IMG/VR virus record: IMGVR_UViG_3300042463_000067
Coordinates: 1 to 25,908 of that record
DNA: 25,908 bases
Reading direction: 5' to 3' (one strand)
Source of the DNA: a virus
Under the pieces are notes generated by a model. The model saw only the letters and a list, made by a program, of their open reading frames with translations, had not been told where the DNA came from and did not search any database. The position numbers were made by a program, and so were the translations under genes. How positions within the stretch are numbered: the first letter of the stretch is position 1; every line of letters begins with the position of its first letter. Shown piece by piece: positions 16,843 to 24,947 of this stretch.

Positions 16843-17883
16843 ATGACAACAACAAAAAAAAAGGGCGGAAGCAAAACCACAATGAGTGGTCAGATAGTCT
16901 TGGACTATTTAGCCAAATATCCTCAATGGATGCCATCTAACACTTTGGCTTCTTTGATTATGAAGGAGCAATCTGCACACTTTGACAATCAAGAGAATGT
17001 TAGATACTTGATAAGATATTACAGAGGTAAAGTCGGAGATGATAAAGCATCAAGAGGAAAGAATACACAATTTATAGAAGATTTTAAGCGTACAGGTTCA
17101 CACTTTGTGCAACCGCCTACTTGGGTAGAGGAGAAGGTTATTTATTGTTTGCCATTAGGAATTAAGAAGATGGGATTTATAAGCGATTTACAAGTGCCGT
17201 TCCACGACCCAAAGGCAATTGATGCTTGTTTTAAATACTTGCTGGACCAGAAGATTGATTCATTATTTATCAATGGAGATTTGGTTGACTTTTATCAATT
17301 GAGTGATTTCCAGAAAGACCCAAGAGTAAGAAAGTTTGATGAAGAATATGAGGCGATTATTGAGATGCTTGGATTTATAAGAGCAACATTTCCTTTGATT
17401 CCTATTTATTATAACTTAGATGCAAATCACGAATTTAGGTATGAAAGGTATATGAGAACGAAAGCACCAGAATTATTAGGGTTAAATGGTAAGTTTGACA
17501 TTGAGGAAATATTAATGCTAAATACTTTTAACATTATTCCGATTAAGAACATAGACCACGTTAAGTTTGGCAAATTACCTATCATTCACGGAGATACTAC
17601 ATTTAGAAGGGGTAGTGGTGTAAATCCAGCAAAGACCCTTTACGATAGGGTTAAGCAGTCGGCAATTGCTTCGCACGTTCACCAAGTACAATCTTACACA
17701 ACAAAAAATCAATTTGATGAGGAAGTATTTACTTGCTGGACCACAGGACATTTAATGCATCCAAACGTGGAATATTGTAAGCACGTTGATAATTACTCAC
17801 AAGGGTTTGCGATATTAGAAAAGGATGTCGAGGGTTACTATTCGGTACAAAATAAAAGAATTTATAAAAACAAAATCTTCTAA
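16843..17883 (+). CDS. Calcineurin-like metallophosphoesterase
   Basis: 346 residues. The N-terminal ~100 (lysine-rich start, then MSGQIVLDYLAKYPQWMPSNTLA…) may be a small DNA-binding helical domain. The phosphoesterase part shows FISDLQVPFHD (112-122), NGDLVD (144-149), DANHE (193-197), HGD (249-251) and SHVH (277-280). These are the metal-binding motifs of the family (D-x-H, GDxxD, GNHE, H, GHxH). The first motif has Gln117 where His is usual, with HD four residues later. Phage enzymes of this type act on nucleic acids or phosphoproteins; the substrate cannot be stated. It lies after the lysis genes and is A-rich at the start (ACAACAAAAAAAAAG). Confidence 0.8.
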   Translation: MTTTKKKGGSKTTMSGQIVLDYLAKYPQWMPSNTLASLIMKEQSAHFDNQENVRYLIRYYRGKVGDDKASRGKNTQFIEDFKRTGSHFVQPPTWVEEKVIYCLPLGIKKMGFISDLQVPFHDPKAIDACFKYLLDQKIDSLFINGDLVDFYQLSDFQKDPRVRKFDEEYEAIIEMLGFIRATFPLIPIYYNLDANHEFRYERYMRTKAPELLGLNGKFDIEEILMLNTFNIIPIKNIDHVKFGKLPIIHGDTTFRRGSGVNPAKTLYDRVKQSAIASHVHQVQSYTTKNQFDEEVFTCWTTGHLMHPNVEYCKHVDNYSQGFAILEKDVEGYYSVQNKRIYKNKIF

Positions 17884-19577: not shown

Positions 19578-19811
19578 ATGACACCAAAAGAAAAAGCAAA
19601 ACAATTAATAGAGTCTATGGCATTTAGTTGTAGAGAATGTGATTACGAAGCTAAAGCTAAACAATGTGCATTAATAGCAGTAGATGAGATGATAGCAGAA
19701 TTAGCTTTTATAAGAAATTATGATGAAGAAATAGATGAAAAAATGATAATAAAAATAGACCAAAGACAAGATTTTTTAATAGAAGTTGAAAAAGAAATAG
19801 AAGCATTATGA
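19578..19811 (+). CDS. Small helical protein with CxxC, unknown function
   Basis: 77 residues: MTPKEKAKQLIESMAFSCRE, CDYEAKAKQCALIAVDEMIA, then acidic helices ending VEKEIEAL. The pattern 'tPkekAkeL…a…KqcAliaVDEi' is familiar from many short proteins of Bacteroidetes phages, but no function is known. The cysteines (18, 21, 29) could bind metal, although there is no fourth clear ligand. It overlaps the next gene by ATGA. Confidence 0.6.
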   Translation: MTPKEKAKQLIESMAFSCRECDYEAKAKQCALIAVDEMIAELAFIRNYDEEIDEKMIIKIDQRQDFLIEVEKEIEAL

Positions 19812-20248
19812 GTAAAGAAGTCCACAAGACATATATGGCAGAACTTGAAATAGAGGTTTTGCGTGATAAAAACAAAGAACTAAAAAAAGAGATAAATCAA
19901 TTAAAGGATTTATTAGACAAACATTTAAACATAAAAACAATAAGAATGGACAAGGAACAACAGAAAGAGTATGCAGTTCAAATAGCCGAAAAAGTATGCA
20001 ATTACTACCAAATTAAGTACGGACAAATGATGTCTAAATACAGAGGCGAGGAAGTTACTTTGGCAAGGCAAATGACTATGTATTTTACTAAAGAAAAAAC
20101 GGAGTTAAATGGCGAGGAAATAGCAAAATTGTTTAATAGGGATAGAACAACAGTTTTACATTCAATATCCAAGATTAAGGGTCAGCTATCAAATAAGTTC
20201 GATGATACCATAAAAAACGACATTTTCAACCTAAATGTGCTACTTTAA
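19808..20248 (+). CDS. Coiled-coil protein with DnaA domain IV-like DNA-binding segment
   Basis: 146 residues. Residues ~10-45 form a Lys/Glu/Leu coiled coil (ELEIEVLRDKNKELKKEINQ…). Residues ~78-125 read RGEEVTLARQMTMYFTKEKT, then ELNGEEIAKLFNRDRTTVLHSISKI. This matches the DnaA C-terminal domain (helix 'R..evv.aRqiamYl.re.t', then 'eIg..fgrDHTTVlHa..ki'). The signature RDRTTVLH lies at 111-118, with Arg where DnaA has the DNA-contacting His. No AAA+ domain is present. It may bind an origin or a promoter, or compete with host DnaA for its boxes. It sits upstream of the recombination and replication genes. Confidence 0.75.
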   Translation: MSKEVHKTYMAELEIEVLRDKNKELKKEINQLKDLLDKHLNIKTIRMDKEQQKEYAVQIAEKVCNYYQIKYGQMMSKYRGEEVTLARQMTMYFTKEKTELNGEEIAKLFNRDRTTVLHSISKIKGQLSNKFDDTIKNDIFNLNVLL

Positions 20249-21970: not shown

Positions 21971-21990
21971 TTTAACTTCGTACAAAGGAT

Positions 21991-22073
21991 GTAGGATATC
22001 CTAACTCAAACTTATTGGCTCAAAGCTGAAACCCTAATCCTACTGGGGTGGATGCCGAGAGCCTTTTTTATTT
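21991..22073 (+). promoter_or_regulatory. Candidate attenuator / structured leader before the replication gene
   Basis: Two mutually exclusive folds can be drawn. Fold A pairs GTAGGAT (21991-21997) with ATCCTAC (22037-22043), 7 bp, with a small hairpin GGCT/AGCT (22017-22020 and 22024-22027 region) inside. Fold B pairs GGCTC (22017-22021) with GAGCC (22059-22063) around ACCC (22031-22034)/GGGT (22046-22049), followed directly by TTTTTTATTTT up to the ATG at 22075. Fold B has the look of a terminator and fold A would prevent it. The ATCCTAC strand of A lies in the loop of B, so a pseudoknot is a third possibility. Confidence 0.45.
21992..22003. promoter_or_regulatory. 12-bp perfect palindrome, candidate operator
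   Basis: TAGGATATCCTA is a perfect inverted repeat with no central gap, found in the gap between the helix-turn-helix gene and the replication gene. It could be the site of a dimeric regulator. It also overlaps the 5' strand of the proposed leader stem, so the two readings compete. No -7 promoter element lies beside it. Confidence 0.35.
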
Positions 22074-22074
22074 T

Positions 22075-22725
22075 ATGGCTAAAGACCCAGCAGTGTTATT
22101 TTACACAAGCGATTTTCTTAGTGGCACTTTCACAATGGATAATGAACAGGTCGGTAAATACATTCGACTTTTGTGCTTACAACATCAAAAAGGTAAATTA
22201 ACTCAAAAGGATATGCTAAGCATATGTAAAGCATATGATAATGAGATTTGGGATAAATTTAAAGTTGAAGATGGTTTATACTACAACGATAGAATGTATA
22301 ATGAAACTATTAGAAGGCAAAAATTTAGTGAAAGTAGAAGAAATAACGCTAAATCATCTAAAAAAGAAAGCACTAGCGAAGCATATGCTAAGCATATGGA
22401 AACTGAAACTGAAAATAGAACTATAACTATAAATGAAAATATAAATATAGATTTTGAATGGTTTTGGAATGAATATGATAAAAAGATAGGAGATAAGCAA
22501 AAGCTAAAAAAGAAGTGGAATAAATTAACTGATGAAGAAAGGCAAAATGCGATGAATTATCTTGACCTTTACAAGCAATCAGTACAAGACAAACAATTCC
22601 GTAAAAACCCAGAAACCTTTTTAAACAACAAATCTTGGAACGATGAAATCATTAACCGAAGTATTACCACAAGCCATAAACTCTCTTACGCAGAACGAGA
22701 GGCTAATGCACTTAGAAGTCTATAA
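22075..22725 (+). CDS. Phage replication protein (O-like, origin-containing)
   Basis: 216 residues from the ATG at 22075: MAKDPAVLFYTSDFLSGTFT, MDNEQVGKYIRLLCLQHQKG, LTQKDMLSICKAYDNEIWDK… The N-terminal ~80 residues are the 'fyp.dfl..t..m..e..G.Yi.Ll' winged-helix module of phage replication and primosome proteins (DUF1376-like). After a polar linker rich in Ser/Glu/Asn, a C-terminal part (FEWFWNEYDKKIGDKQKLKKKWNKL…YKQSVQDKQFRKNPETFLNNKSW) resembles the DnaD/O-type C-terminal region. An upstream in-frame start at 22048 would read through the leader hairpin and is rejected. The gene carries iteron-like repeats, like lambda O. Confidence 0.7.
   Translation: MAKDPAVLFYTSDFLSGTFTMDNEQVGKYIRLLCLQHQKGKLTQKDMLSICKAYDNEIWDKFKVEDGLYYNDRMYNETIRRQKFSESRRNNAKSSKKESTSEAYAKHMETETENRTITINENINIDFEWFWNEYDKKIGDKQKLKKKWNKLTDEERQNAMNYLDLYKQSVQDKQFRKNPETFLNNKSWNDEIINRSITTSHKLSYAEREANALRSL
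22210..22459 (+). repeat. Iteron-like repeats and A+T-rich stretch, candidate origin of replication
   Basis: A 17-base palindromic element occurs twice: GATATGCTAAGCATATG (22210-22226) and CATATGCTAAGCATATG (22382-22398), 16 of 17 bases identical. Extra half-sites AGCATATG lie at 22230-22237 and 22380-22387, so AGCATATG occurs four times in two pairs, each pair 11 bases apart. The two 17-mers are read in different codon frames (DMLSIC versus AYAKHM), so the DNA and not the peptide is conserved. Immediately downstream, 22399-22459 is roughly four-fifths A+T. Repeats plus an A+T-rich stretch inside the initiator gene is the lambda ori layout. Confidence 0.6.
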
Positions 22726-23377
22726 TAAACTTGAACCAGATGAATTAAAGGTTGTGGTTGCTTTAGATACAATGAGTGTTGGCAGATGTTCTCCTATTGA
22801 GGTTAGAGAGCATTTAAAAACTTGTGTTGCATTTAGCGGATGTCAAACACCTACAATAGAGTTATTTCAATTCCTTTGCGAATTTGTAATTAAGAACTAT
22901 GGTAACTATAAACTAAAAGAACTTGGAGTAGCTTTTGAACTTTATGCAATGGGGAAATTATCTGTTGACAAATCGATTATGTTTACCCCTAAATTCTTTG
23001 GCGATGTGATGGCAGCTTATAAGCCAATAGCTTTGCAAGTAAGACAAAAGACTTATGTAGAACCACAACCAGTAGAAGTACCTAAAATCAATGATGATGA
23101 AATCATTGAGGCATTGTACGAAAACTGGAATAAGTCGGCTAAAAGAGGATGGGAGTTACTAAATACGATGGCTTTTGATGTACTATGGAAACGAAAGGAA
23201 CTAAACAAGGAGAATCTAAGCCAAGAGAAGGCTGACCAGATAAAGAAAAAGATTATAGCACATTACAAGGTAACGGCTAAAACACCTAAAGACTTGGAGA
23301 AATTAAATAACGAAATATTTATCAAAAACGAGTGCAAAAGATATACTTTGTACCTATTTTTACAAAATCAACTATGA
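22643..23377 (+). CDS. Replication-associated protein, possible helicase-loader-like
   Basis: 244 residues starting 83 bases before the O-like gene ends, in another frame: MKSLTEVLPQAINSLTQNER, then KLEPDELKVVVALDTMSVGR, and a helical domain with TIELFQFLCEFVIKNYGNYKLKELGVAFELYAMGKL. The C-terminal half is Lys/Glu-rich (KRKELNKENLSQEKADQIKK). The position straight after the initiator is that of helicase loaders (lambda P), but no Walker motif or loader signature is visible. A shorter start at Met22 (22706) is possible; the longer one reads like protein. The block 'fa.ElyamGkl…ft.kffg.Vl.aY' recurs in Bacteroidetes phage proteins of unknown function. Confidence 0.6.
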   Translation: MKSLTEVLPQAINSLTQNERLMHLEVYNKLEPDELKVVVALDTMSVGRCSPIEVREHLKTCVAFSGCQTPTIELFQFLCEFVIKNYGNYKLKELGVAFELYAMGKLSVDKSIMFTPKFFGDVMAAYKPIALQVRQKTYVEPQPVEVPKINDDEIIEALYENWNKSAKRGWELLNTMAFDVLWKRKELNKENLSQEKADQIKKKIIAHYKVTAKTPKDLEKLNNEIFIKNECKRYTLYLFLQNQL

Positions 23378-24322: not shown

Positions 24323-24513
24323 TGAAAGATACATACGGAAAGAAGCTATATACTTGTAAATGCGGTTCAGTTACCGAAGGCTATGTTTGGTTTGGTAAAA
24401 TAAAAGAAACCCAATTTGAATGTACTAAGTGCGGAAAATGGGTTGGCTATGAAAACTTAGATAAAAAAGTAGATAGTATTATTTCAATACGAACTCCAAC
24501 AAAAAACCGATAA
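24322..24513 (+). CDS. Small zinc-ribbon protein (63 aa)
   Basis: 63 residues: MKDTYGKKLYTCKCGSVTEG, YVWFGKIKETQFECTKCGKW, VGYENLDKKVDSIISIRTPT, KNR. The pairs C12-K-C14 and C34-T-K-C37 on two beta knuckles form a zinc ribbon. Such mini-proteins near terminase genes probably bind nucleic acid or another protein; the partner is unknown. The stop shares a base with the ParB-like start (TAATG). Confidence 0.6.
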   Translation: MKDTYGKKLYTCKCGSVTEGYVWFGKIKETQFECTKCGKWVGYENLDKKVDSIISIRTPTKNR

Positions 24514-24947
24514 TGAACATCAACGAAATTAAACCTAATCCAAACAATCCAAGAAAGATTGATGCTGATGACTTTGCTAAGTTGGTTAAGTCTATACAAG
24601 AAGACCCAAAGCTATTAGAAGCAAAACCATTAATCATAGATGAAGATAATGTAATCTTAGGAGGCAATCAAAGATATCGTGCTTGTTTACAATTAGGCAT
24701 CCAAGATATTCCTGTGATTAAAATGGCTAACTTAACCGAGCAAGAGAAAAAGAAATTACTTGTAATTGATAACACTCACTATGGAATGTGGGATATGGAT
24801 ATGTTAGCTAACAATGATTGGCAATTAGAAGATTTAAGCGAATGGGGTGTTAATGTTGACTTCTTAGTACCAAGTAATAATGAACCAAAAGCAATAGACA
24901 ATACTAAAAAAGGAAAGGTTTGCCCTAATTGTGGCTTATCTTTGTAA
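24513..24947 (+). CDS. ParB-like N-terminal domain protein
   Basis: 144 residues. MNINEIKPNPNNPRKIDADD, then FAKLVKSIQEDPKLLEAKPL, IIDEDNVILGGNQRYRACLQLG and TEQEKKKLLVIDNTHYGMWDMDML follow the ParB/sulfiredoxin domain: 'i.i..l.pnp.NPR', 'l..Si…', the nucleotide-binding box GGNQRYRA at 50-57, and a final helix. The C-terminus ends CPNCGLSL, a possible half zinc knuckle. In phages such proteins often sit just before the terminase genes and may serve DNA modification, packaging or nuclease functions. The CTPase box is present but the DNA-binding HTH of chromosomal ParB is absent. Confidence 0.8.
   Translation: MNINEIKPNPNNPRKIDADDFAKLVKSIQEDPKLLEAKPLIIDEDNVILGGNQRYRACLQLGIQDIPVIKMANLTEQEKKKLLVIDNTHYGMWDMDMLANNDWQLEDLSEWGVNVDFLVPSNNEPKAIDNTKKGKVCPNCGLSL
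24937..24944 (+). promoter_or_regulatory. Candidate -7 promoter element for the terminase operon
   Basis: TATCTTTG, identical to the elements at 18383 and 18533, overlaps the last codons of the ParB-like gene. The predicted start leaves about 13 bases before the ATG at 24964. A TTTG at 24919-24922 is only 14 bases upstream, shorter than usual, so the -33 part is uncertain. Confidence 0.5.

Follow-up and report, generated by a model that had tools for sequence, protein, structure and literature searches.

A probable lambda/SPP1-style replication origin within the initiator gene of an undescribed DUF1376-like phage family

Where does a phage begin to copy its DNA when its replication gene itself carries a set of short DNA repeats, and which protein reads those repeats? 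This question is raised by one gene in a stretch of viral DNA of 25,908 nucleotides (IMG/VR record IMGVR_UViG_3300042463_000067), hereafter the window. A sequence-only reading of the window had proposed that a lambda-like origin is hidden inside this gene, marked by two 17-bp palindromes and an A+T-rich stretch behind them. Our analysis favours a related and more specific answer, to which we assign a probability of about 0.83: the initiator gene, a member of an undescribed DUF1376-like family, would contain a replication origin in the style of lambda and SPP1. The features on which the argument turns are collected in Table 1.

Table 1. Positions of the initiator gene, its repeats and the neighbouring features; positions are those of the window unless a contig is named.
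Feature	Position	Strand	Description
Leader RNA	21985-22066	+	Two hairpins, then a U-run directly before the start codon; 7-nt complementary loops
Initiator gene	22075-22725	+	216 aa; N-terminal winged-helix-like, DUF1376-like domain 1-93; linker 94-122; C-terminal primosomal part ~123-193
Iteron cluster 1	22205-22237	+	AAAAGGATATG, CTAAGCATATG, TAAAGCATATG at 11-bp steps; codons 44-55, predicted helix-turn-helix
Iteron cluster 2	22377-22398	+	CGAAGCATATG, CTAAGCATATG; codons 101-108, disordered linker
A+T-rich tract	22399-22458	+	A-rich on the + strand; 81.7% A+T; candidate unwinding element
Downstream gene	22643-23377	+	Overlapping, 244 aa, all-helical; kept behind every N-terminal type examined
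Further leader copies	L040:2912-2998; L058:2908-2998; L060:2911-2998; L069:681-768; L073:2484-2571; L195:2910-2998

The two 17-bp copies, CATATGCTAAGCATATG (22382-22398) and GATATGCTAAGCATATG (22210-22226, matching at 16 of 17 positions), lie 172 bases apart, just where the sequence-only reading had placed them, and their codon offsets of 0 and 1 confirm its remark on different reading frames. We found a third copy at 22221-22237 that matches at 15 of 17 positions. When up to three mismatches were allowed, the 17-mer had six matches on both strands of the 25.9 kb, all of them within the initiator gene; shuffled sequences gave a mean of 0.13 matches and never reached six. Likewise, every one of the five occurrences of AGCATATG in the window falls in the initiator gene (chance mean 1.09). 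Direct-repeat analysis placed successive copies 11, 11, 150 and 11 bases apart, which bears out the paired 11-bp geometry proposed earlier; the two clusters are 150 bp apart, start to start. Two details of the earlier description had to be revised. The unit is better written as an 11-bp iteron, NNAAGCATATG, than as a 17-bp palindrome, the palindromic look of the 17-mers arising because the CATATG core is itself palindromic; and the count of two copies becomes five units, arranged as three plus two. Steps of 11 bases shift the reading frame, and the units accordingly occupy all three codon frames.

The protein encoded by this gene appears to be built for DNA binding at one end and for replication at the other. 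AlphaFold2, supplied with a 59-sequence alignment, predicted a confident winged-helix-like N-terminal domain (block pLDDT about 92-96) with helices at residues 23-39, 44-51 and 56-59 and strands at 63-65 and 68-70, then a disordered linker (101-122) and a helical C-terminal domain. The codons of cluster 1 coincide with helix 2 and the turn of the predicted helix-turn-helix. A structure search of the PDB returned mostly winged helices with weak scores, headed by those of origin-recognition-complex proteins (best Z 5.0 over 68 residues, rmsd 3.2); at the level of sequence, neither the initiator alone nor the 59-sequence profile found a solved relative. The N-terminal domain resembles DUF1376 (PF07120), the family of YdaU-like phage proteins, over residues 9-77, a weak match (E 2.5e-4) whose 21.8 bits lie below the Pfam gathering cut-off of 30.1, as do the scores of the relatives. 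No description of iterons or of a DNA-binding function in DUF1376/YdaU genes was found in the openly accessible literature searched, and DUF1376 was absent from 14 control genomes, so that no model-organism homologue was reached by that route. For the C-terminal part, PHROG gave matches to primosomal and replication-initiation families (9 of 10 members), which backs the replication role that had been assigned to the gene. In an alignment of ten lineages, no column is invariant between Gly40 and Lys61, and invariant residues stand on both flanks. Thus, the protein stretch overlapping cluster 1 is the part that differs between lineages.

Membership of the lambda-O family by homology was considered and rejected: the initiator has no match to the Pfam family for phage replication protein O, its C-terminal half matches general PHROG replication-initiation families, and its N-terminal domain is DUF1376-like.

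Immediately behind cluster 2, the 60 bases singled out by the sequence-only reading are indeed A+T-rich (81.7% against 66.1% for the window, the 98.9th percentile), and the 80-bp stretch from 22409 is the third least stable in the window. GC and AT skew are positive throughout the window and are uninformative for origin mapping. The scheme that we favour is as follows. The N-terminal winged-helix domain would bind the 11-bp iterons in its own coding sequence, its targets being the two linker iterons as well as the three that overlap the helix-turn-helix codons. Protein on the linker iterons would then melt the adjoining A+T-rich tract. Recruitment of the host helicase would fall to the C-terminal domain, probably together with the downstream gene product. 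Binding at cluster 1 may either pair with cluster 2 through a DNA loop or have a regulatory role. The same iterons, bound by the same domain, might instead form an intragenic operator for autoregulation or silencing, with the origin elsewhere; two separated clusters in one gene would suit a repression loop, and a promoter-proximal RNA leader is also present. We consider this unlikely. An A+T-rich tract directly behind cluster 2 recurs in 66 relatives, at 79% A+T against 68% for the gene, a feature that speaks against an operator, and this tract, the C-terminal primosomal domain and the precedents of lambda and SPP1 together favour an origin.

In lambda, the iterons are each about 18-19 bp long, and lambdoid phages are known for type-specific swapping of the origin segment. 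The central part of gene O holds both the O-binding iterons and an A+T-rich tract (PMC7466680; see also PMC3349717). The window phage shares this anatomy: its initiator gene harbours iterons and an A+T-rich tract between the DNA-binding N-terminal and the C-terminal parts, the tract adjoins the iterons on the C-terminal side, and the segment likewise behaves as a swappable module. Lambda differs in having four iterons in one cluster, whereas in the window phage the units are 11 bp long and split between two clusters (3+2), of which one overlaps helix-turn-helix codons. Thus, what stands of the lambda-like origin is its anatomy, with iterons and an A+T-rich tract inside the gene; the iteron length, the number of clusters, the cluster in helix-turn-helix codons and the lack of a lambda-O match set the window phage apart. 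In Bacillus phage SPP1, gp38 binds direct repeats of oriL within gene 38, and a phage-encoded helicase loader is required for replication as well (PMC6316719). The likeness again lies in an initiator gene that contains direct repeats together with an A+T-rich unwinding element. Unlike the window phage, in which no second site was seen, SPP1 possesses oriR as a second origin and encodes a DnaB-type helicase of its own. We know of no counterpart of the upstream cluster, cluster 1, in lambda or SPP1. Origins inside initiator genes are already known; as far as the literature searched goes, the family, the two-cluster layout of 11-bp units, the cluster in helix-turn-helix codons and the lineage-wise replacement of iterons with the DNA-binding half are new.

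Relatives at 53-66% identity lack AGCATATG and have a different repeat of 10-12 bp at the same two places, namely in the predicted helix-turn-helix codons and in the linker behind. We identified AGGTCATATGAC at 12-bp steps in type B (L043, L062 and L127), AACCATTAGGTT and AACCTAATGGTT in type C (L044), ATCATATG in L193 and CTACATATGTAG in L096. A member from the Prevotellaceae, L097, has two copies of AAGATAACCCAA in the helix-turn-helix codons and three more in the linker, and L102 has two copies of GCCGTGGCA at each of the two places. Others have the linker cluster only, with AATACCACGGT three times (L108) and ATACCAAA four times (L100), both at 11 bp. The sequence-only reading had looked to relatives that keep the protein and lose the palindromes as the case that would speak against it; the distant relatives carry a substitute repeat instead, at the same two places, which favours the reading. 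Under permutation of synonymous codons, repeats proved to be in excess (p≤0.01) in 34 of 70 dissimilar genes, and part of this excess stems from simple low-complexity (GAAAAT)n linkers. Across 21 lineages, the best similarity between cluster 1 and cluster 2 was higher when both came from one gene (11.7) than when they came from different genes (8.3; p=0.0001, 10,000 permutations), and the two clusters do not match each other in about half of these lineages. The helix-turn-helix cluster is hence common, not universal.

Comparison of types B, C and F of the close group with the window at the nucleotide level gave a sharp mosaic. The C-terminal domain is 94-97% identical and the downstream gene 82-93%, whereas the N-terminal half is 58-67% identical, shuffled sequence giving 59%. 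These identities indicate that the DNA-binding domain has been swapped together with its iterons. The DNA-binding half and the iterons thus appear to be exchanged as a unit while the C-terminal half, the downstream gene and often the leader stay constant, with the caveat that the iterons sit in the N-terminal coding DNA, which makes their transfer with the domain partly unavoidable. The N-terminal domain of type F is unrelated to that of the window, and its linker has GTATNNATAC at exact 11-bp steps. Geobacillus virus E2, Psychrobacillus PVJ1, Exiguobacterium 137 and Listeria LP-030-3 have N-terminal domains with 40-57% identity to that of type F and share its linker motif GTATNNATAC; a sister group (Geobacillus PK5.1 and D6E, Bacillus 268TH008 and Clostridioides CD1801) has ACGATACGT in its place. 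The replisome organisers of Geobacillus virus E2, Listeria LP-030-3 and similar phages resemble the window initiator in having iterons at 11-bp steps in the linker, between the N-terminal domain and an A-rich tract; they differ in their unrelated N-terminal domain and their iteron, and no cluster in the DNA-binding domain was noted. Further N-terminal types occur behind the same leader RNA. When the replication region of the window was compared with GenBank phages at the DNA level, no match emerged. As a separate observation, several linker iterons in isolated Firmicutes phages (L201-L208) precede (AAAGAA)n-like tracts.

The pairing of domain and repeat also bears on whose sites these are. It is known that parS sites are palindromic, and proteins with a ParB N-terminal domain (24513-24947) and with a DnaA-domain-IV-like part (19808-20248) are encoded nearby; one of these, or a host factor, might be the true reader of the repeats. 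We regard this as highly improbable, given that the iteron type tracks the N-terminal type of the initiator in spite of the likeness of the C-terminal halves and next genes, and that one N-terminal family retains its motif across phyla in linkers that otherwise do not match. The 11-bp signal is very probably the landing site of the initiator protein itself.

The repeats are real and are under selection at the DNA level, as the sequence-only reading had argued from the frames. We compared each gene with a null in which codons were shuffled among identical amino acids, such that the protein and the codon counts were preserved. The initiator gene had 23 repeated 9-mer pairs against 6.4 expected (z 5.4), a clear outlier among 42 ORFs; the runner-up, ORF 16843-17883, was the only other one with a repeat excess (23 against 10.7, z 3.0). 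Frozen iteron codons in relatives point the same way. Among 67 distinct N-termini with at least 60% identity across the N-terminal 92 residues, the ratio of synonymous diversity to expectation fell to 0.30 over codons 46-55, where it reached its minimum among all windows of codons, and was 0.75 elsewhere, with kinship left out of the counts (no tree) and neighbouring codons in the same sequences as the control. Within cluster 1, Ser49 is AGC in 67/67, Tyr54 TAT in 67/67, Ala53 GCA in 66/66 and Ile50 ATA in 65/66, and Lys45 is AAG in 66/66, although AAG is the minor codon. By contrast, codons above the two free bases of the unit vary (Leu48 CTA, TTA or CTT; Cys51 TGC in 34 and TGT in 33), a pattern that agrees with the 11-bp unit. 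At the linker site (47 sequences), GCA is used in 44/44 and CAG for Gln in 10/10; Lys is AAG in 36/37, against a usage of 0.28, and TAT occurs in 46/47, against a usage of 0.56. Close relatives thus retain the sites codon for codon, in line with the synonymous-position conservation that had been proposed as a check. The least probable alternative, in which protein or codon constraint (a repetitive linker plus helix residues) or action in the mRNA produces the repeats, draws on lineages that repeat residues in frame (HMxG, KITQ), one of which, L043, has p=0.09 under codon permutation, and it can be set aside because the units occupy three frames, the window gene passes codon permutation and a rare AAG is fixed while spacer codons vary.

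A bolder proposal is that the origin is self-referential, the DNA that encodes the specificity-setting helix-turn-helix being itself a binding site of the same domain. We hold this tentatively and lean against it. If it were true, a single change or recombination would alter reader and site together, the family could diversify into many iteron types with the helicase-loading half constant, and the helix-turn-helix codons would be a rare case in which the reading head and its target are the same stretch of DNA. Irrespective of this proposal, the many lineages in which a DNA-binding domain can be matched to its iteron make a specificity code directly testable. The iterons also offer a way to place origins from sequence in uncultured phages and prophages of Bacteroidota, Clostridia and others, a large group in which we found no described initiator or origin.

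The gene overlapping the end of the initiator gene encodes, to judge from its position, a candidate partner or helicase loader; its product matched no known family, and a structure search gave nothing above Z 3.0. Elsewhere in the window, the 146-aa product of 19808-20248 has DnaA domain IV in its C-terminal part (Bac_DnaA_C, E 1.6e-20) without the ATPase domain, and possibly binds host DnaA boxes. The ParB N-terminal-domain protein of 24513-24947 (144 aa) is without an evident helix-turn-helix domain.

Upstream of the initiator gene, the loops of the two leader hairpins, GTAGGAT (21991-21997) and ATCCTAC (22037-22043), are exact complements and could form a 7-bp kissing-loop pairing. We detected this arrangement in 50 of 64 distinct viral leaders and in none of the shuffled leaders. 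The loops covary in at least eight pairs (GTAGGAT, GTCGGAT, GTCAGAT, ATGGTAC, ATGCGAC, GTTGCAG, GTCGCAT and GTCGTAT, each with its exact complement), and the leader is common to phages with unrelated initiator N-terminal domains. It had no match in Rfam and no description in the literature searched, and we propose it as a candidate for an undescribed cis-regulatory RNA. The leader also stands ahead of genes that are not of the DUF1376 type (L051:1969, L074:1845, L219, L225, L276, L215 and L224). These include a methyltransferase-like protein (MEINKIYNEPCLET), MKVLIACEESQAVT and an initiator-like type, MAKRFTDTEKWKKP, in the linker of which ACAAGCCCC is repeated at 11 bp.
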